Below, in pieces: positions 2,883 to 13,078 of a stretch of 44,391 nt of DNA (position 1 is its first letter; every line of letters starts with the position of its first letter). The position numbers and the translations under genes are program-made. The notes under the pieces were generated by a model. That model was not told the origin of the DNA, did no database searches, and saw nothing but the letters and a program-made list of their open reading frames with translations. The stretch lies in NCBI GenBank assembly GCA_013334755.1, contig JAAXWX010000010.1:4353-48743 (forward strand), in the 5' to 3' direction. The stretch comes from Chlorobiaceae bacterium. Its GTDB lineage: Bacteria; Bacteroidota; Chlorobiia; Chlorobiales; Chlorobiaceae.

Positions 2883-3482
2883 TCAGATTGTTTCGGCTGT
2901 GATCTTGTATTGACCTCCAGTATGTGCTCCGGCTTTGTTTGTCTGTGAAAAATCAAGTGTCATTTTGACATTGCCCATTGTTGCCTGGGTTGTGGTAATG
3001 CCATTCAGACTGGTCGTGATGCTTGTACCAGAATGTCCCCCGTTATCGGAGATAAAGGTATCTCCTGTACCGTTTTTAATCAGGATTTTTGAGGTACCGG
3101 AAGTCAGGGTGTTGTTGACGACCGTCAGGGTAACTTTAGCGTTTCCCGAGGGTGAAAGACCCCGGATAGCCCATGCGTTGGGAATAGTCAGCGTCACCAG
3201 ATCTGGAACTACTTGATAAATATTGCTTGCAGAGAGCTGATTTCCTCCACTGGTTGCACCAGACCATGCTACATTCCAGTTGTTTCCACCCTGGTCTACA
3301 GCACCGTTACTGTCACTGAAATTAAGGTTAAGTGCCGAATAGTAATGCAGGATAATACAGTCGGGCAGTACTATTGAAACATTGGTTGAACCGGATTTCG
3401 TGGCAGCTGATGCCGGCATGTTACCGGCAAAAAAGATTGAAAGTGCCAGAGAGAGGCTTGTTAATATCGTTTTCAATTTCAT
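2883..3482 (-). CDS. Secreted beta-rich protein, paralog of the tandem pair
   Basis: A 199-residue exported protein. Start at 3482 is supported by GGAG nine bases upstream; an earlier ATG at 3497 has no such site. The signal peptide is MKLKTILTSLSLALSIFFAG with cleavage after PASA. The mature domain aligns end to end with the duplicated proteins: LHYYSALNLNF, NVAWSGATSGGN, AWAIRGLSPSGNAKV, SITTSLNGI and GAHTGGQYKITAETI. Function unknown. It is the first gene of the minus-strand cluster and has its own upstream region, where I see a sigma-70-like rather than a sigma-54-like promoter, so it may be expressed differently from the tandem pair (inference). One Cys is present in the mature part. Confidence 0.85.
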   Translation of the reverse strand: MKLKTILTSLSLALSIFFAGNMPASAATKSGSTNVSIVLPDCIILHYYSALNLNFSDSNGAVDQGGNNWNVAWSGATSGGNQLSASNIYQVVPDLVTLTIPNAWAIRGLSPSGNAKVTLTVVNNTLTSGTSKILIKNGTGDTFISDNGGHSGTSITTSLNGITTTQATMGNVKMTLDFSQTNKAGAHTGGQYKITAETI

Positions 3483-3596
3483 GACAGGGGACTCCATGAT
3501 TCAATGTTGCGCAGTAAGTAATGACTGTACTGCGAAGTTCAAGAAACCGGCAACAGTAAAACGGTACTGACAAATTTGATGCTGAATTTCTTTAAA

Positions 3597-5394: not shown

Positions 5395-5844
5395 AGGATA
5401 TTCAGTTGGACATTTTTTATACCGACATGTTTCAGGTAAAGAGATTGCAGAAAATACCTGCATTTGACAATATTGACAAAAGAAGCATGTTTACTATTCA
5501 ATATGATCTATGCGGTCAAAGAACAAGGGTTTCGCTTGATAGTATATTTTTTTTAAATCCTTTATACAGTTCAGATAACTCAAGGACTTCGTATACAAAA
5601 AAAAGACAGGGTGTTTTGTATGTAGCAGGCATAATTGTGCAGGTCACTATCTTTTGTACAGGAATATGATGGCCGTGCAGCTTTTTTCGCTTTATGGGCA
5701 ACTATCCTCTTTTGTCCTGCTTTAGTTTTCCATATATTTTGTAAAAGGTCTTAAAACAATAGCAGTGCAGTCTCTTCAGGTCTATCCCTGTTTTATCGTT
5801 TTCATGCCTTGTCAAGCCTCCCCCAACTCCAATTCGGGCTTTTT
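5395..5844. other. Intergenic region between SET gene and polysaccharide operon
   Basis: About 450 bases, AT-rich, with no convincing gene; short open frames here lack ribosome binding sites and protein-like composition. It must contain the divergent promoters. A weak candidate for the polysaccharide operon is TTGTCC (5712-5717) with TATTTT (5735-5740) at 17-base spacing. No riboswitch or strong hairpin was recognised. Confidence 0.5.
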
Positions 5845-8631
5845 ATGACATCCAGATATCGGATGATTTCCATTCTCGCATGTGGTATTGTTATCATCGT
5901 TATTACAGCATTCTTGTTTCAGCGCACACAGGGCTTTGAAAGTCATTACAGTGCCGGAGAACGTCTATATCTGGAGAAAAGTTATTCCAGGGCGCTGGCT
6001 GCCTTTTCTGCTGCCCATGCACGAAATCCCCTTGACGAAAAAACTTCATGGTATCTCTTTCTTACTTACAGCAAACTTAATCGAAAGAAAGAAGCTGAAG
6101 CGCAACTCTCGGATTTGAAAAGACACATAATAAAGGATAGCGGCATTCTCGCAGAACTGGGTTCCATCCATTACAGCAGGAATTCTTTTGGCGAAGCAGA
6201 GCGCAGCTACGCAGCAAGTCTTGCTGTAAAGGAAAACCCTGATATCAGGCGGAAATATGCCGAAGTACTTGTATGGCAGAAAAAATACAAGCGGGCATTG
6301 TTTGAACTTGACCATATTCTTCTCATCAAGCCTGCGGACAAGGTGCTCAGAGAGCTCAAGGCTGATGTTCTTTCCTGGGATGGACAACATGTCAAGGCTC
6401 TCGTTTTGTATCACGAACTTTACCAGACAGGCTATCACAAGAATGAAATCCTGAAAAAAATCACACAGCTTTCCGGTTCCGCTGTTCATGACTCATCAGC
6501 GACTCCTGTTGACGGGTTGAAAATGCCGGAAAAGGATTCAGGTTATCAAGGTGCCGGAAATATGATTAAACCGCAGCAGCAAAAGCATCCTTTTGTTGTA
6601 CTTTCTTCTCTTTCTGTCGACCAGAGCCGGAATAAGGAAGAGCGTTTTCTAAAGCTTCTTGGCCGCGATCCTTACAATAAAGCTCTTTTAAGGGAAGCTG
6701 TTTCGACTTATGAGTCTTCCGGAAATCCTGAAAAAGCCCTTCCGTATTATGAGCGCCTTCTTGACACTTATCCTGGTGATACCAGTCTTGCCCTTGCTGC
6801 GGCAAAAACTTATGCATGGGCCGGCAGGTATCCCAGGGCTTTGCAGCTTTACTCCAGGGTAATACAGAACGGCCAAGGCAGTGACAGGATTCGCGAGGAA
6901 TATGCCGATGTGCTCTACTGGGACATGCAGTATACCCTTGCTATAGCAGAGTATCAGTTACTCTGGAAAAAGGGAGTGCTAAAAAAGACACAAGCTCTCA
7001 ATTTCTCCCGTGCACTCATGGCATCAAGGGAGTATGTTTCAGCCGCTGAAATCATCGATTTTCTCACGAAGCGTTATCCGGAGGATGTTGAGGTACTGGA
7101 AGCAAGAGCTGACGTTTGTTTTGCCCTTAAGCAATATGATCGTGCAGAAAAACTGTATCGTGACTTGACCAGATCAAAACCGGAAAATCCGGCATATTAT
7201 AACAGGGTTGCCGATATCTTTGTGGCAAAGCATGACTATCAGCAAGCCATTGCAATAAGCCTCGATATTCTGCGGCGTTTTCCTGACAACGAGAATGCCC
7301 TGTTGACCATTGCCAGGGTTTCAAGCTGGCAGAAAGATTATAGCCTTTCACTTGAATATTATGACAGATTGCTTGCATCAGCCCATTCCGGTCCTCAGTA
7401 TTATCGGGAAAAGGCACGGGTACTCGGATGGACGAGAGCTTATGGGAAATCACTCCGTCTGTATAAAGAGGCTATCCGTTCTTACCCAGAGAACCAGGCT
7501 CTAAAGGCGGAATCGGAGGCAAAAAAATACTATTACCGAAACACCTGGAATCATGCCGTAAAAAATTACAGGGCATGGCTGCTTGCCGAACCGCATCATC
7601 CGGAAGCATTGTTTGACCTTGGGCAGCTTTTTTTTCAGCAGGCTCGCTGGAAAGAAGCCTCTGAAATCTATGACACCCTGCTTATCGATATACCTGACCA
7701 TCCTCAGGCGACAGTCGTGAGGAAAAAAATATCAGTTCTCTCCTCCCTGACACGTCTTGAAAGCGGAGTGGACTATTTCAGTGCGAGAAGCGCTCAACGC
7801 CTGAATGATGTGACCTGGAGCGGTTTTCATACGGCGCTTGATATTCCGATACACGAAAGAGAGACTCTTTTTATGAAGTTGGACAGGAAAAACTATCGTT
7901 TCGAAAATGGACGCCATACTCCGTTCAGTAATGTCGTAACGGCAGGGTTCGATTACCGCAACCAGCCCGATATCCACTTGCGGGCAGCTTACGGTTTCAA
8001 GCAGAACTCCGGCAATCTTGCGGACAGTCATACTGGCTTTATTGAAGCGGGCAGCATGCCTCTCGACAATCTTCATCTTGATTTTGGATTCCACCGGGAA
8101 GAGGTGATTGAAAATTACACAACGTTCCTGAACCATCTGCAGAAAAACCGGTGGCAGGGCAGAGTACATTATGACGGGTTCAGACGATTGAATGCCGGTG
8201 CCGATTACGCTCTTGAACGCTATTCGGACGGAAACAGCAGGGCAAATATCGGCATCGATCTCATGGCGCACCTTATGTATGAACCGAAACGGCTGAGCGT
8301 TACCTATCGGTGGCAGAACTATGGTTTCAGCGATCACCGGGCTGAGTATTTTTCACCGGCAACGTTCACCACCCATACAGCAGGCATTGAATGGCAGCAT
8401 TCTCTCAACAGCGAAGAACTGTTTCGGGGTGCAAACGATACCTATTATACCGCTGCTTACCGCATAAGTCTTGAACCGGGCAGCAGTCTCTCCCACCAGG
8501 TTCATGCAGGTATTTATAAAGACTGGAGCAAACGTTTTTCCGGCTCTCTCGATTACCAGCATACCTGGAACAGCAAGACAGAAATATACAAGGACGATCA
8601 GATCAATGCCGGCATCATGTGGTACTTTTAG
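5845..8631 (+). CDS. TPR-rich outer-membrane polysaccharide export protein (BcsC/PgaA-like)
   Basis: A 928-residue protein with a hydrophobic N-terminal signal or anchor (ILACGIVIIVITAFLF, about residues 10-25). From about residue 30 to 640 it consists of tandem tetratricopeptide repeats (patterns such as ALxLY..I, A..Y...L, YPE/NP at helix ends). The last 280 residues alternate aromatic and polar residues as in a beta barrel and end in WYF, the C-terminal aromatic signal of outer-membrane barrels. Proteins with this layout (BcsC, PgaA) guide an exopolysaccharide through the periplasm and across the outer membrane. It is followed by a GT2 synthase and a GH8 hydrolase in the same direction, which fits that role. 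I start at ATG 5845; ATG 5863 is also possible and a TTG at 5809 is unlikely. Which sugar it exports is not known. Confidence 0.85.
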   Translation: MTSRYRMISILACGIVIIVITAFLFQRTQGFESHYSAGERLYLEKSYSRALAAFSAAHARNPLDEKTSWYLFLTYSKLNRKKEAEAQLSDLKRHIIKDSGILAELGSIHYSRNSFGEAERSYAASLAVKENPDIRRKYAEVLVWQKKYKRALFELDHILLIKPADKVLRELKADVLSWDGQHVKALVLYHELYQTGYHKNEILKKITQLSGSAVHDSSATPVDGLKMPEKDSGYQGAGNMIKPQQQKHPFVVLSSLSVDQSRNKEERFLKLLGRDPYNKALLREAVSTYESSGNPEKALPYYERLLDTYPGDTSLALAAAKTYAWAGRYPRALQLYSRVIQNGQGSDRIREEYADVLYWDMQYTLAIAEYQLLWKKGVLKKTQALNFSRALMASREYVSAAEIIDFLTKRYPEDVEVLEARADVCFALKQYDRAEKLYRDLTRSKPENPAYYNRVADIFVAKHDYQQAIAISLDILRRFPDNENALLTIARVSSWQKDYSLSLEYYDRLLASAHSGPQYYREKARVLGWTRAYGKSLRLYKEAIRSYPENQALKAESEAKKYYYRNTWNHAVKNYRAWLLAEPHHPEALFDLGQLFFQQARWKEASEIYDTLLIDIPDHPQATVVRKKISVLSSLTRLESGVDYFSARSAQRLNDVTWSGFHTALDIPIHERETLFMKLDRKNYRFENGRHTPFSNVVTAGFDYRNQPDIHLRAAYGFKQNSGNLADSHTGFIEAGSMPLDNLHLDFGFHREEVIENYTTFLNHLQKNRWQGRVHYDGFRRLNAGADYALERYSDGNSRANIGIDLMAHLMYEPKRLSVTYRWQNYGFSDHRAEYFSPATFTTHTAGIEWQHSLNSEELFRGANDTYYTAAYRISLEPGSSLSHQVHAGIYKDWSKRFSGSLDYQHTWNSKTEIYKDDQINAGIMWYF

Positions 8632-8657
8632 GTAACGACTCTTAACATTGCAGTTTC

Positions 8658-10163
8658 ATGCAGGAGAAAAAAAACTTCAGGATTCTGGCAGCCCAGGTGA
8701 TCGTGCTGCTGATCGCCGTAACCATCTATATCCTTGCTCGCACCTATTTCCTTTACCAGGCCCGCTATGATAACTTTGAGCGGGTTTTCAGCATACTGTT
8801 TCTGGCTGCTGAAGTCTTTATCATGTTTCATGCCTTCGGTTTTTTTTCAAATATCCTTAGTGAGAGCCGGCAGCACGCTGAGCCTCTGCAGGCTGATCCT
8901 GGTCCGGATGCATCGGTGGCGATTCTGATTCCCGCCCGACATGAACCGAAGCAGGTTGTTGAAAACACGCTCCTGACTTGTCTTGGCCTTGCTTATCCCA
9001 ACAAGAAAATCTACCTGCTTGATGACTCCTCGATCGAGAGCTACAAGCAGGATGCCCGGGATCTTGCTGCTGCATACAGGGTTGAACTTTTTACCCGGCC
9101 AGATAACAGGGGGGCCAAAGCCGGGCTGATCAATGATGTCCTTAAATCGCTTACTGCAAAGTATATTGCTGTTTTCGATGCTGACCAGAATCCCATGCCG
9201 GGGTTTTTGAAAAAGGTGCTTCCCTTTCTCGAAGCTGATGAACGACTTGCCTTCGTTCAGACTCCCCAGTTTTATTCGAATACCGATGTCAGCCGGGTCG
9301 CACTGGTCTCGAATGTCCAGCAGGCGGTCTTTTTTGAGTATGTCTGTGAAGGCAAGTCATCGAAGGAATCCATGTTCTGTTGCGGTACCAACGTGGTGAT
9401 CCGCCGCAGCGCACTGGAGGATGTCGGGGGATTTGATGAACAGACCGTAACTGAAGATGTTGCAACAACGCTGAAGCTGCATCGGAAACACTGGAAATCG
9501 CTATACTACAATAAAGCCTATACTTTTGGCATGGCCCCCGAGGATCTTGGATCGTATTTCAAACAGCAGAATCGCTGGGCGATGGGCAACGTCCAGCTTC
9601 TGCGAAAGCTTATCGTCCTTTTTTTTACTGATATAAGGGTTCTTAAACCCATTCAGTGGTTTGAGTATACCATAACATCGACCTATTACTTTATCGGGTG
9701 GGCTTATCTTATCCTGATGATTGGCCCGATCCTCTATACCTTTTTTAATGTTCCATCATATTTTATGGACCCATCGGTCTACATGCTGACCTTTGTGCCC
9801 TACTTCATGCTTTCGCTCATGGTTTATTATTCGAGCATGGGAAAGAGAAACTACTCTATACTCAATATTTTCAGGGCTCAGATGTTGAGCCTGATGACCA
9901 TTCCGGTCTATATCAGGGCATCGATACTGGGACTTTTCAATATCCGGAAAGGATTCCAGATTACTCCCAAGGATGGAGTCCGGAGTGTGCCATTGAGAAT
10001 GCTCTGGCCTCAGCTTCTCTTGTGGGGTGTCCATGTCTCCGCGCTTACCTGGGGCCTTTTCAGGTTCTATTATGAACAGAACCTTGCACTCGGAATGAAT
10101 GTTTTCTGGCTCAGCTTCCATTGTTTCATTTTCAGCGGAATTTTTTATTTCAACAAGGAATGA
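8658..10163 (+). CDS. Cellulose-synthase-like family 2 glycosyltransferase
   Basis: A 501-residue integral inner-membrane enzyme predicted to polymerise a beta-linked polysaccharide from a nucleotide sugar. Two transmembrane helices lie at about 10-34 and 43-66, the GT-A domain at about 85-310 and several helices after 330. Catalytic motifs are all present: Asp122-Asp123 (LLDDSS), DAD at 174-176, TED at 265-267 and QQNRW at 303-307, plus FCCGTN (240-245), as in BcsA. Unlike BcsA it stops soon after the membrane helices and has no PilZ domain, so direct c-di-GMP control is not expected. It begins 26 bases after the TPR/barrel gene and overlaps the GH8 gene by 4 bases (ATGA), so the three are co-transcribed. 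The product could be cellulose or another beta-glucan; sequence alone does not decide. Confidence 0.9.
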   Translation: MQEKKNFRILAAQVIVLLIAVTIYILARTYFLYQARYDNFERVFSILFLAAEVFIMFHAFGFFSNILSESRQHAEPLQADPGPDASVAILIPARHEPKQVVENTLLTCLGLAYPNKKIYLLDDSSIESYKQDARDLAAAYRVELFTRPDNRGAKAGLINDVLKSLTAKYIAVFDADQNPMPGFLKKVLPFLEADERLAFVQTPQFYSNTDVSRVALVSNVQQAVFFEYVCEGKSSKESMFCCGTNVVIRRSALEDVGGFDEQTVTEDVATTLKLHRKHWKSLYYNKAYTFGMAPEDLGSYFKQQNRWAMGNVQLLRKLIVLFFTDIRVLKPIQWFEYTITSTYYFIGWAYLILMIGPILYTFFNVPSYFMDPSVYMLTFVPYFMLSLMVYYSSMGKRNYSILNIFRAQMLSLMTIPVYIRASILGLFNIRKGFQITPKDGVRSVPLRMLWPQLLLWGVHVSALTWGLFRFYYEQNLALGMNVFWLSFHCFIFSGIFYFNKE

Positions 10164-11278
10164 AGCCTTTTTTTCTTTCGCTGCTTTTTCTTTCGCTGCA
10201 GCTTATGATGATCAACTGTTCCGCAGCTCCAACGGATCCGGAGGAAATTGTCCGCGGCTCCTGGCTGCACTACAAACATGCCTATATTCGGGATGGAAGG
10301 GTCATCCGTCCGAAAAACAATAATGACACGGTTTCGGAAGGTGAGGCCTACGCAATGCTGCGTGCAGTCCTCATGGACGACAGAAAAACCTTCGACGAAT
10401 GCCTTTCATGGACGCAATCGTCACTTTCGCGCAAAGCCACCCATGGAGACGCGCTTCTTGCATGGCATTATGAGAACGGTATTGTCAGCGATTCCACCGC
10501 TGCGACAGATGCTGATATCGATTACGCCTATGCACTCCTCCTTGCTTTCCGTACATGGCAGGAGAGGCGTTATGTTGATCTTGCCCGTGAGGTGCTCGAC
10601 AGCATTCTCAAACTCGAGACTGTAGAACGTGATGGCCGGCTTTACCTTTTGCCCTGGCCTCAGATTGTGACCGAAACGGAGGCACTGTTACCCCAAAACC
10701 CATCCTACTATGCTCCCTCAAATTTCAAGCTCTTTTATGAAGTCAGCGGTGATAAACGGTGGCTCAAGCTTGCCGATACAGGCTATGACCTTCTCCGAAG
10801 TCTCCAGAAATCGTTCAACGGGGAAAAAGGATCAGGTCTTGTACCCGACTGGTGTGCTGTTGACATGCAGGGAAGGATAGTTCCTCTTTCTGGCCGTTCA
10901 TCGCTTTACGGCTGGGAAGCCACAAGGACTCCTCTGAGAATTGCAGCAGATTATCATCTTTACCATGACCTGCGGGCACTTGGTGTACTGAAGAGGTTTT
11001 CAGCATTTTTCGACAGTGAGTTCAGCCGCAATGGCAGAATTTTCAGCGAATATGCCTGTAACGGCACTACCTCGAATCCCTATGAAACACCACTCTTCTA
11101 CAGTGCCGCCTATGCGGCAGCGGAAGCAGCGGATTCCCCCACAGCTTCTCCCATCCTGGAACGACTTCGGGGATTTATCAAGCAGGAAGGAGAGGAATTC
11201 TGGTATCAGGATACGGAAGATTACTACGTCAACAGTCTTTCCTGGCTCGTGGAATATTATAAAACCCAAAAGAAGTAA
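10160..11278 (+). CDS. Glycoside hydrolase family 8 (BcsZ-like endoglucanase)
   Basis: A 372-residue exported enzyme expected to cut beta-1,4-linked chains in the periplasm. The start at 10160 overlaps the GT2 stop and is preceded by AAGG. A signal peptide covers about residues 1-22 (FLSLLFLSLQLMMINCSA); the Cys is not in a good lipobox because Asn precedes it. GH8 signatures are clear: SEGEAY with the proposed catalytic acid Glu60, and ATDADIDYAYALLLAF at about 115-130. Length matches BcsZ. Its place directly behind a GT2 synthase and an exporter is the classic context: the hydrolase trims or releases the polymer during export. No Bcs-type accessory gene (BcsB, BcsD) is adjacent. Confidence 0.88.
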   Translation: MKPFFLSLLFLSLQLMMINCSAAPTDPEEIVRGSWLHYKHAYIRDGRVIRPKNNNDTVSEGEAYAMLRAVLMDDRKTFDECLSWTQSSLSRKATHGDALLAWHYENGIVSDSTAATDADIDYAYALLLAFRTWQERRYVDLAREVLDSILKLETVERDGRLYLLPWPQIVTETEALLPQNPSYYAPSNFKLFYEVSGDKRWLKLADTGYDLLRSLQKSFNGEKGSGLVPDWCAVDMQGRIVPLSGRSSLYGWEATRTPLRIAADYHLYHDLRALGVLKRFSAFFDSEFSRNGRIFSEYACNGTTSNPYETPLFYSAAYAAAEAADSPTASPILERLRGFIKQEGEEFWYQDTEDYYVNSLSWLVEYYKTQKK

Positions 11279-11288
11279 CGGAGTTCCC

Positions 11289-11528
11289 ATGATCGAAAAA
11301 AACGAATTGCTCGAAAAACTCAGGGATGCGGCAAAAATGGAAGGGGCCCTTATTACCATATACTCAAACCATTTGACCACCATACTAGGCCATTCCAGAC
11401 TTGAGGAGGAGATACAGGCTGAAATAACATTTATTTTGAAAAAGCTGATAGGGGATTCGAAAAGGCACGACGATTTTATGAACGATCTTATCACATCAAT
11501 CTCAAAGAGCACCAAAAATGTTTATTAA
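11289..11528 (+). CDS. Small helical protein, half-ferritin-like (member 1)
   Basis: A 79-residue protein without signal peptide, predicted to be two long helices. GGAG five bases upstream supports this start, 10 bases after the GH8 stop, so it is probably translated from the polysaccharide operon mRNA. The pattern MEGALITIYSNHL in the first helix and DSKRHDDFMNDLI (from residue 56) in the second recalls one half of a ferritin- or rubrerythrin-like bundle, where E...Y and D/E-x-x-x-H supply metal ligands. Metal binding is an inference; the usual Glu of ExxH is Ser. It overlaps the next gene by 11 bases. Confidence 0.7.
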   Translation: MIEKNELLEKLRDAAKMEGALITIYSNHLTTILGHSRLEEEIQAEITFILKKLIGDSKRHDDFMNDLITSISKSTKNVY

Positions 11529-11748
11529 TGATGATTTTCTGGAATTTTTCGGATCCATGATGGAGCTCGAAAAGCAGCAGAGGGATTTACTGAAACAGAT
11601 TTCTGCAGAAGTCGTTGACCAGGATATCAAAGACTTGCTTATGAGGATAAGCATGGACGAGCAGCGGCATGTTGATCTCGTTCAGCGGATTATGGAACTT
11701 GTTGCAGGTGTTGCTGAACCGGATTCATCAATCGGGACAAAAATATAG
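11518..11748 (+). CDS. Small helical protein, half-ferritin-like (member 2)
   Basis: A 76-residue protein of two predicted helices. It has the most ferritin-like motif of the group: MELEKQQRDLL in helix 1 and MDEQRHVDLVQRI in helix 2, with Glu48-x-x-His51 as in diiron two-helix half-bundles. Starting inside the previous gene by 11 bases indicates translational coupling. A protein this small would have to dimerise to build a four-helix site (inference). No signal peptide. Confidence 0.7.
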   Translation: MFINDDFLEFFGSMMELEKQQRDLLKQISAEVVDQDIKDLLMRISMDEQRHVDLVQRIMELVAGVAEPDSSIGTKI

Positions 11749-11838
11749 CTCTCTTTGATACGGTTTTTTTGCTTGTCTGGCATGGTAGTTGATGATAATA
11801 GTATAGAGATCATCTGAAACCCCCAACAAGGAAAAACA

Positions 11839-12033
11839 ATGGCACAGAACTACAGAAATTTGCTGGACTCACTCGGTGCAATAAGCCTGTATGCAAAACA
11901 TGTGAAAAGCACACTTGATTTTTCAGGACTTGATGAAACATCCCGCAGAAAAATTGCCGCCATCCTCGACACAATGCTCGAAGAGTCCCGCAGTCAGGAA
12001 GAGGCTGTCAAGCAGGCCATCGCAGCGATCTAA
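11839..12033 (+). CDS. Small helical protein (member 3)
   Basis: A 64-residue protein with an AAGGA ribosome binding site six bases before the ATG. It keeps the length and two-helix layout of members 1 and 2 (YRNLLDSLGAISLYAKHV, then AAILDTMLEESRSQEEAVKQAI) but the ExxH position reads SRSQ, so the proposed metal ligands are lost. It lies 90 bases after member 2 and is followed by a strong terminator, making it the last gene of this transcript. Function unknown. Confidence 0.65.
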   Translation: MAQNYRNLLDSLGAISLYAKHVKSTLDFSGLDETSRRKIAAILDTMLEESRSQEEAVKQAIAAI

Positions 12034-12077
12034 CAAGACGTAAAGCACTTCCAAAGGAGTGTCCCCCGATCTTCTTT

Positions 12078-12122
12078 GCCGTACGAGCATGGTTACCCTT
12101 CCATGCCGTATGGCTTTTTTTT
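12078..12122 (+). terminator. Rho-independent terminator
   Basis: GCCGTACGAGCATGG (12078-12092) pairs with CCATGCCGTATGGC (12101-12114) as a 14-bp stem with one bulged A and one G-T pair around an 8-base loop; eight T residues follow at 12115-12122. It ends the transcript carrying the small helical proteins and possibly the polysaccharide genes. Confidence 0.85.
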
Positions 12123-12353
12123 GTTAACTGCTTGTATTTCATTTTTTCCTGCATGAAGCAACTGTCTTATCCTGGCGTTGCTGCAACTGTTTCATAATGA
12201 TCCCACCCGATCATGAGGATGACTTCGGATGCCAATTTTCAATATTCAGAACCTGTCAGGCTGTTTAAATTGCTTTTTAACTGGAGTTTTACTTCTGGCA
12301 CAGAATTTGATTCATTACGTATAAAGCATGAATCAAACAAAACGGAGCAAAAA

Positions 12354-12551
12354 ATGTTAAGCAGAGAGGTTTACCTGGACTACTTCGAACAGATTCTTGA
12401 TGTTCGTGCAAGGCTTACGGAACAGGCTGCAGAAATCGCAGAGCAGACCGACAGTCAAGCAGTAAGGGATGCTTTGAAAAGTATCGCCGATTCCGGCGGA
12501 CGTCAGATGGCTATGGCAGAGGAGCTGGCTGCTCTTCTAACCGCGGCCTGA
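12354..12551 (+). CDS. Small helical protein (member 4)
   Basis: A 65-residue protein. The start at 12354 is chosen for the GGAG six bases upstream; the open frame extends back to 12213 but that part looks non-coding. Layout matches the three preceding small proteins: helix YLDYFEQILDVRARLTEQAA, a short turn, then helix VRDALKSIADSGGRQMAMAEELAALL. As in member 3, the His of ExxH is absent. It lies beyond the terminator at 12078-12122 and therefore needs its own promoter in 12123-12350, which I could not pin down. Function unknown. Confidence 0.65.
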   Translation: MLSREVYLDYFEQILDVRARLTEQAAEIAEQTDSQAVRDALKSIADSGGRQMAMAEELAALLTAA

Positions 12552-12739: not shown

Positions 12740-13078
12740 ATGTGTGCTTTTCAGAATAAACCTGCGTCCAATACTTCTGTAATGGGAAAAGAAGAACAAG
12801 ACAATCCGGAACAAAAGAGAAAAAAGGTTCTCTATACCTCATTAGTCCAGCAAATTGTTGATGGCTGGGCTTTAGGCAAGCCGCCGCTTCAATCAACCGG
12901 TAAGCCCAGCGGATATTACCGGCTCACCAATTATCTTATGGAGTATATCCTCCACAACAATATCCTTCCTGAAGGAATTCACCCCATGCCTGAAGGACGT
13001 GATCGTAACAACAACCTTGAACCATCATTCCTGGTGGATTTCGACAGCATTATCGGAGACATATCCTTACCTGATTGA
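12740..13078 (+). CDS. Conserved-looking hypothetical protein
   Basis: A 112-residue soluble protein I do not recognise. It has a charged N-terminal region (GKEEQDNPEQKRKK), a possible helix YTSLVQQIVDGWALG, then YRLTNYLMEYILHNNILPEG and an acidic C terminus. No signal peptide or membrane segment. The ATG at 12740 lacks a well-placed ribosome binding site; the Met at 12782 is an alternative. It ends 18 bases before the VOC gene and may be co-transcribed with it. Confidence 0.5.
   Translation: MCAFQNKPASNTSVMGKEEQDNPEQKRKKVLYTSLVQQIVDGWALGKPPLQSTGKPSGYYRLTNYLMEYILHNNILPEGIHPMPEGRDRNNNLEPSFLVDFDSIIGDISLPD

Follow-up and report, generated by a model that had tools for sequence, protein, structure and literature searches.

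Conserved pairs of small helical-hairpin genes, one family with half-ferritin features, beside a predicted exopolysaccharide operon in Chlorobium

The window analyzed here, a stretch of 44,391 nucleotides from a 2.1 Mb Chlorobiaceae genome, carries four small genes (g1 to g4) on the + strand, 3' of a polysaccharide operon (Table 1). Judged by the domains that they encode, the three genes at 5809-11278, for a TPR/beta-barrel exporter, a GT2 synthase and a GH8 glycosidase, would form a cellulose-type, synthase-dependent exopolysaccharide operon. The GT2 protein reaches 251 bits against TIGR03030 (CelA), below the cut-off of 699, and yields no PilZ match at E-values up to 10; the GH8 protein reaches 130 bits against PRK11097 (BcsZ), below the cut-off of 299. 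The close spacing given in the initial annotation, a 10-base gap between GH8 and g1 and an 11-base overlap between g1 and g2, is correct. That annotation read the four genes as one series; their order and strand stand, but a strong predicted terminator splits g3 from g4. The start of g4 sits within a longer ORF, and homologues back the start chosen here. No Rfam family was matched in the window. A 112-aa ORF without a Pfam match follows the array (12740-13078). At the other end of the window, two identical ORFs for 221-aa secreted proteins (92-757 and 1039-1704, - strand) lie about 950 bases apart, either an exact tandem duplication or an assembly artefact, and a diverged relative of them is found at 2883-3497.

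Table 1. Features of the operon and of the small-gene array (positions in the window)
Feature	Position	Strand	Description
TPR/outer-membrane beta-barrel export protein (PgaA/BcsC-like)	5809-8631	+	First operon gene; Pfam TPR; PgaA_barrel E 8.5e-4
Processive GT2 synthase (CelA/BcsA-like)	8658-10163	+	501 aa; Glyco_tranf_2_3 E 8.9e-28
GH8 glycosidase (BcsZ-like)	10121-11278	+	PF01270 E 4.7e-43; start putative
g1	11289-11528	+	Family A helical hairpin, 79 aa; E18, Y25, H28, S36, D56, H60
g2	11518-11748	+	Family B half-ferritin hairpin (predicted), 76 aa; E18, E48, H51
g3	11839-12033	+	Second family A member, 64 aa; N-terminus shortened; H60 replaced by Q
Intrinsic terminator (predicted)	about 12078-12122	+	Between g3 and g4; stem-loop of -24.2 kcal/mol, z -7.1, then 8 T
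g4	12354-12551	+	Second family B member, 65 aa; without metal ligands (G48, Q51)

Since the products are short and none of the four matches a curated protein family above its cut-off, they might be taken for unrelated or spurious ORFs. This reading is hardly credible and is refuted by conservation: the genes have homologues, with order conserved, in as many as 29 genomes; dN/dS lies between 0.03 and 0.25 for A, B, g3 and g4 in every computable pair, one B comparison being saturated. Such values, all below 0.26, indicate purifying selection, g3 and g4 included, and hence functional proteins, so that the four ORFs at 11289-12551 exist as genes, as had been proposed.

Profile comparisons resolve the array into two tandem pairs, with g1 and g3 in one family (A) and g2 and g4 in another (B). 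An A profile from which g1, g3 and relatives of the g3 type had been left out recovered g1 (5e-27) and g3 (1.8e-10) and left g2 and g4 unmatched; a B profile built in the same manner recovered g2 (9e-32) and g4 (2.5e-6) and left g1 and g3 unmatched. Profile-profile probabilities were 95.8% for A against the g3 type, 84% for B against the g4 type and 3% or less for the cross pairs, the similarity of A to B (hhalign probability 3%) being non-significant. Pairwise z-scores agree, at 8.5 for g1-g3, 4.9 for g2-g4 and -0.3 to 2.9 for the remaining pairs. With matches within the families and none across them, the array reads A-B and then A'-B'. A single family of four tandem copies is ruled out by these tests; thus, of the earlier proposal of duplication with ligand loss, the duplication and the loss stand and the common ancestry of all four genes does not. 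Nor did the profiles give four unrelated families, the outcome named in advance as fatal to the proposal: they gave two. The second pair is patchily distributed, with g3 homologues (68% identical) behind GH8 in two genomes and g4 homologues (51-60% identical) in three. In G015 and G035, A'-B' is the sole pair behind GH8, and G003 has B' alone, which points to an old paralogue rather than a recent local copy.

Family B is, on profile and model evidence, a natural half-ferritin and a member of the ferritin-like superfamily. The AlphaFold model of g2 is a two-helix hairpin (helices 4-31 and 35-65, pLDDT 86.5). Matches of the B profile among PDB sequences include designed diiron hairpins (1mft, 1.4e-4; 5c39, 2.7e-4), the encapsulated ferritin (EncFtn) 5n5e and bacterioferritins. 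Pfam DUF2383 (PF09537) matches 15 of 20 B members, at best with 2.7e-6; g2 itself gives no match at E-values up to 10, and three relatives score 13-21 bits, under the curated cut-off of 30.8. In Foldseek the best matches of g2 include 5n5e, 1mft (DF2), EncB and EncC, with PA2169 lower down; E-values are weak (best 0.09), as expected for a hairpin, yet ferritin-like proteins prevail among the leading matches. The spacing of E18, E48 and H51 in g2 (30/33) equals that of E32, E62 and H65 in EncFtn. Among stand-alone B proteins of the g2 type, E18 and E48 are kept in 10/10 and H51 in 7/10, the other three having Q51. This ligand set is absent from g4, whose ferritin-like membership comes via the B profile. 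A mobile or phage origin was considered and dropped, no B relative being confirmed among viral contigs or plasmids, with weak PHROG matches only.

Family A is also modelled as a two-helix hairpin, longer than that of B (g1: helices 4-34 and 40-73, pLDDT 88), which bears out the two-helix layout first seen in the sequence. It gave no ferritin match by profile, Pfam, PDB sequences or Foldseek, and no significant relatives. The half-ferritin character first suggested for the array therefore holds for B (g2 and g4, by profile and fold) and is not supported for g1. The motif D-[ES]-x-R-H is present as noted (DSKRH in g1, DEQRH in g2, with Gln for the His in g3 and g4); because A has no significant similarity to B and no ferritin matches, it is weak evidence of homology. 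H28 and S36 of family A are invariant in 30/30 aligned sequences, g3 included; position 18 is commonly, not always, acidic, and H60 is likewise common without being universal. The distances of E18, D56 and H60 of g1 from the hairpin turn resemble those of E18, E48 and H51 in B, so that a mixed A-B site would fit, on geometric grounds only. Searches detected family A in 29 of the 86 genomes of the bacterial family and in no other genus among 394 genomes of the phylum from 170 genera; named matches, obtained by a degenerate-pattern search from a subset alignment, were all Chlorobium or other Chlorobiaceae. Family A thus appears to be previously undescribed and restricted to one genus.

The linkage of these families to the operon is conserved. 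GH8 of the operon is present in 27 of the 86 genomes, and A, of the g1 or g3 type, in all 27; A is found in two of the 59 genomes in which GH8 was not detected (G050 and G053). Co-occurrence is strong (Fisher p 2.5e-20), by a statistic that ignores shared ancestry. In 19 of the 27 GH8 genomes, no more than about 0.75 kb separates the A-B module from one end or the other of the operon, which upholds the expectation that the array would recur beside GT2 and GH8. Five genomes (G000, G056, G051, G045 and G069) have A-B immediately downstream of GH8, 10 bases away or overlapping it by 4-8 bases; nine have A followed by a fusion of B to a NotI-family domain (B::NotI, see below) behind GH8 after about 170-730 bases; G015 and G035 have A'-B' there; and in three (G017, G021 and G075) A-B precedes the TPR gene, overlapping it by 1 base or standing 50 bases away. 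Wherever the g1-type A occurs, B adjoins it, usually with an overlap of about 8-11 bases. That the association is kept in differing positions argues for function over inherited gene order; it is confined to one genus, so that the genomes are not independent. Pairing and linkage alike rest on conservation.

Several neighbouring genes were also observed. Most genomes with B::NotI behind GH8 have, between GH8 and A, a gene for a short peptide that we take to be Nif11-like, with a conserved C-terminal LPASEHW (L104:7902-8411, L106:8674-9351, L124:8040-8649 and similar). A NifH-family gene lies downstream in one locus (L101), and in Chlorobium ferrooxidans a gene for a di-haem cytochrome c peroxidase/MauG adjoins A-B on the opposite strand (L099:6292-7347).

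Many relatives encode a protein of about 360-540 aa in which B makes up the N-terminal domain and a NotI-family domain (E 7e-60) the C-terminus. All these fusions have K18 in place of E18 and lack the E18/E48/H51 set; together with the change of H51 to Q in three stand-alone B proteins, this implies that metal is not essential to every form. Any metal binding would thus not be uniform across the family. Eight genomes have A-B::NotI at a site apart from the polysaccharide operon, where it usually faces a second B::NotI gene in convergent orientation (L108:5562-8924, L109:6948-10341, L122, L125, L126 and L127). The A-coupled copy of such pairs has a decayed helix 2 of B, and in several genomes the second copy is preceded by the tail of A only, a pattern suggestive of an inverted duplication. 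The genus also has NotI domains that are not joined to B, among them stand-alone proteins of roughly 300 aa from other Chlorobium genomes (L136-L145), and the four Cys of the NotI family are conserved in fused and unfused forms. The genome carrying the window has no NotI domain.

We tentatively favor, at somewhat under even chances, a reading in which A and B constitute an obligate two-gene module, each protein a helical hairpin, that forms a hetero-oligomeric bundle assisting or regulating an exopolysaccharide machine without PilZ. A and B would most likely come together as a bundle of four or more helices, and this bundle, with stand-alone B, may retain the half-ferritin dimetal site of E18, E48 and H51. 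The module would then work in the cytoplasm as an accessory or regulatory subunit of the synthase-dependent machine linked to it, setting synthase activity, for example, by metal or redox state, and the ligand-less g3-g4 pair would be its structural or modulatory paralogue. As GT2 has no PilZ match, another kind of regulator could have a place in the operon. The A-B::NotI genes away from the operon in eight genomes speak against a regulatory role, as does A without detected GH8 in G050 and G053. A bolder version is decidedly improbable: A-B, as a natural hetero-oligomeric half-ferritin split between two proteins, would sense iron or redox state and thereby gate the PilZ-less, cellulose-type synthase in Chlorobium, B having been reused to control a NotI-type nuclease.

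Much of the same evidence bears on what else the module could be. The invariance of H28 and S36 in 30/30 A sequences, regardless of metal ligands, the K18 of every NotI fusion with the decay of helix 2 in the A-coupled copies, and the purifying selection on ligand-less g3 and g4 would all suit A and B as primarily an oligomerization or docking scaffold, in which ancestral metal ligands are being lost and B docks a fused partner, such as the NotI-like nuclease, or the synthase onto A. The retention of E18 and E48 in 10/10 stand-alone B proteins, needless for a pure scaffold, leaves this a possibility that we rate as low. Those ligands, with the EncFtn-like fold of B, could instead mark A-B as a split half-ferritin for iron handling (ferroxidase activity or buffering), neighbouring the operon through an iron-rich surface lifestyle and exerting no control on the synthase. 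C. ferrooxidans DSM 13031, a phototrophic iron oxidizer (PMC8125076), is among the A-B carriers. We consider iron handling unlikely, however, given that encapsulin is absent from the 86 genomes, that many members with degraded ligands are still conserved and that coupling to the operon by 1-11 bases suggests a direct role. A PCxxCH-type haem motif, a guessed proxy for cyc2, matched only short frames unlike cyc2 in the window's genome and three relatives.

The number of relatives with B::NotI, the strength of the NotI match (7e-60), its four retained Cys and a weak PADLOC match to REase_II raise a further alternative, that A-B::NotI was the founding restriction or DNA-cleaving system and that stand-alone A-B pairs are remnants without the nuclease, beside polysaccharide genes by chance. 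Stand-alone B keeps more metal ligands than the fusions, however, which makes the fusion appear the derived form; the genus also has NotI domains on their own; and the stand-alone A-B pairs show purifying selection and coupling to the operon. We regard this origin as very improbable.

With B, a half-ferritin lineage is added that does without encapsulins and whose gene always comes with one for an undescribed protein family; the linkage ties both to exopolysaccharide production in green sulfur bacteria, the iron oxidizer C. ferrooxidans among them. If the module is a metal sensor, it would point to a way in which such cells could adjust surface polysaccharide to iron, and an iron- or redox-sensing A-B would represent a class of regulator not known for polysaccharide secretion. 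Nothing relevant emerged when the literature was searched for cellulose operons that include ferritin-like proteins. The small size of the proteins would allow rapid biochemical tests.

Among known systems, the NotI-family endonucleases (PF12183) share their family with the C-terminal domain of B::NotI in the relatives and are absent from the window's genome. Small extra genes beside GT2, TPR exporter and GH8 genes recall, by description, the accessory subunits of Bcs cellulose systems (BcsD, BcsQ, BcsR and BcsF); the operon here differs in a GT2 without PilZ and in that no BcsB was seen in it. EncFtn proteins (EncB and EncC of M. xanthus, 5n5e of P. furiosus) are, like B, two-helix half-ferritins with the E...ExxH pattern and 30/33 spacing, whereas B has a constant partner from another family and is linked to a polysaccharide operon. 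EncFtn assembles as a metal-dependent decamer whose diiron site lies at the dimer interface. Encapsulin (PF04454) is absent from all 86 genomes, control genomes being positive, and no GSLK-type C-terminal localization tail was seen by eye in stand-alone B proteins; without a shell gene in the 86 genomes, a role of B as encapsulin cargo is ruled out and A-B is not an encapsulated-ferritin system. Designed diiron hairpins of the DF type (1mft, DF2) resemble B as helix-loop-helix units of about 50 residues with E and ExxH; DF2 is a designed homodimer that forms a diiron bundle, whereas B is natural and encoded with A. The closest Pfam family for most B members is the ferritin-like four-helix-bundle family DUF2383/PA2169 (PF09537, TIGR02284), from which B differs as a single two-helix hairpin of about half the length of the family's domain.
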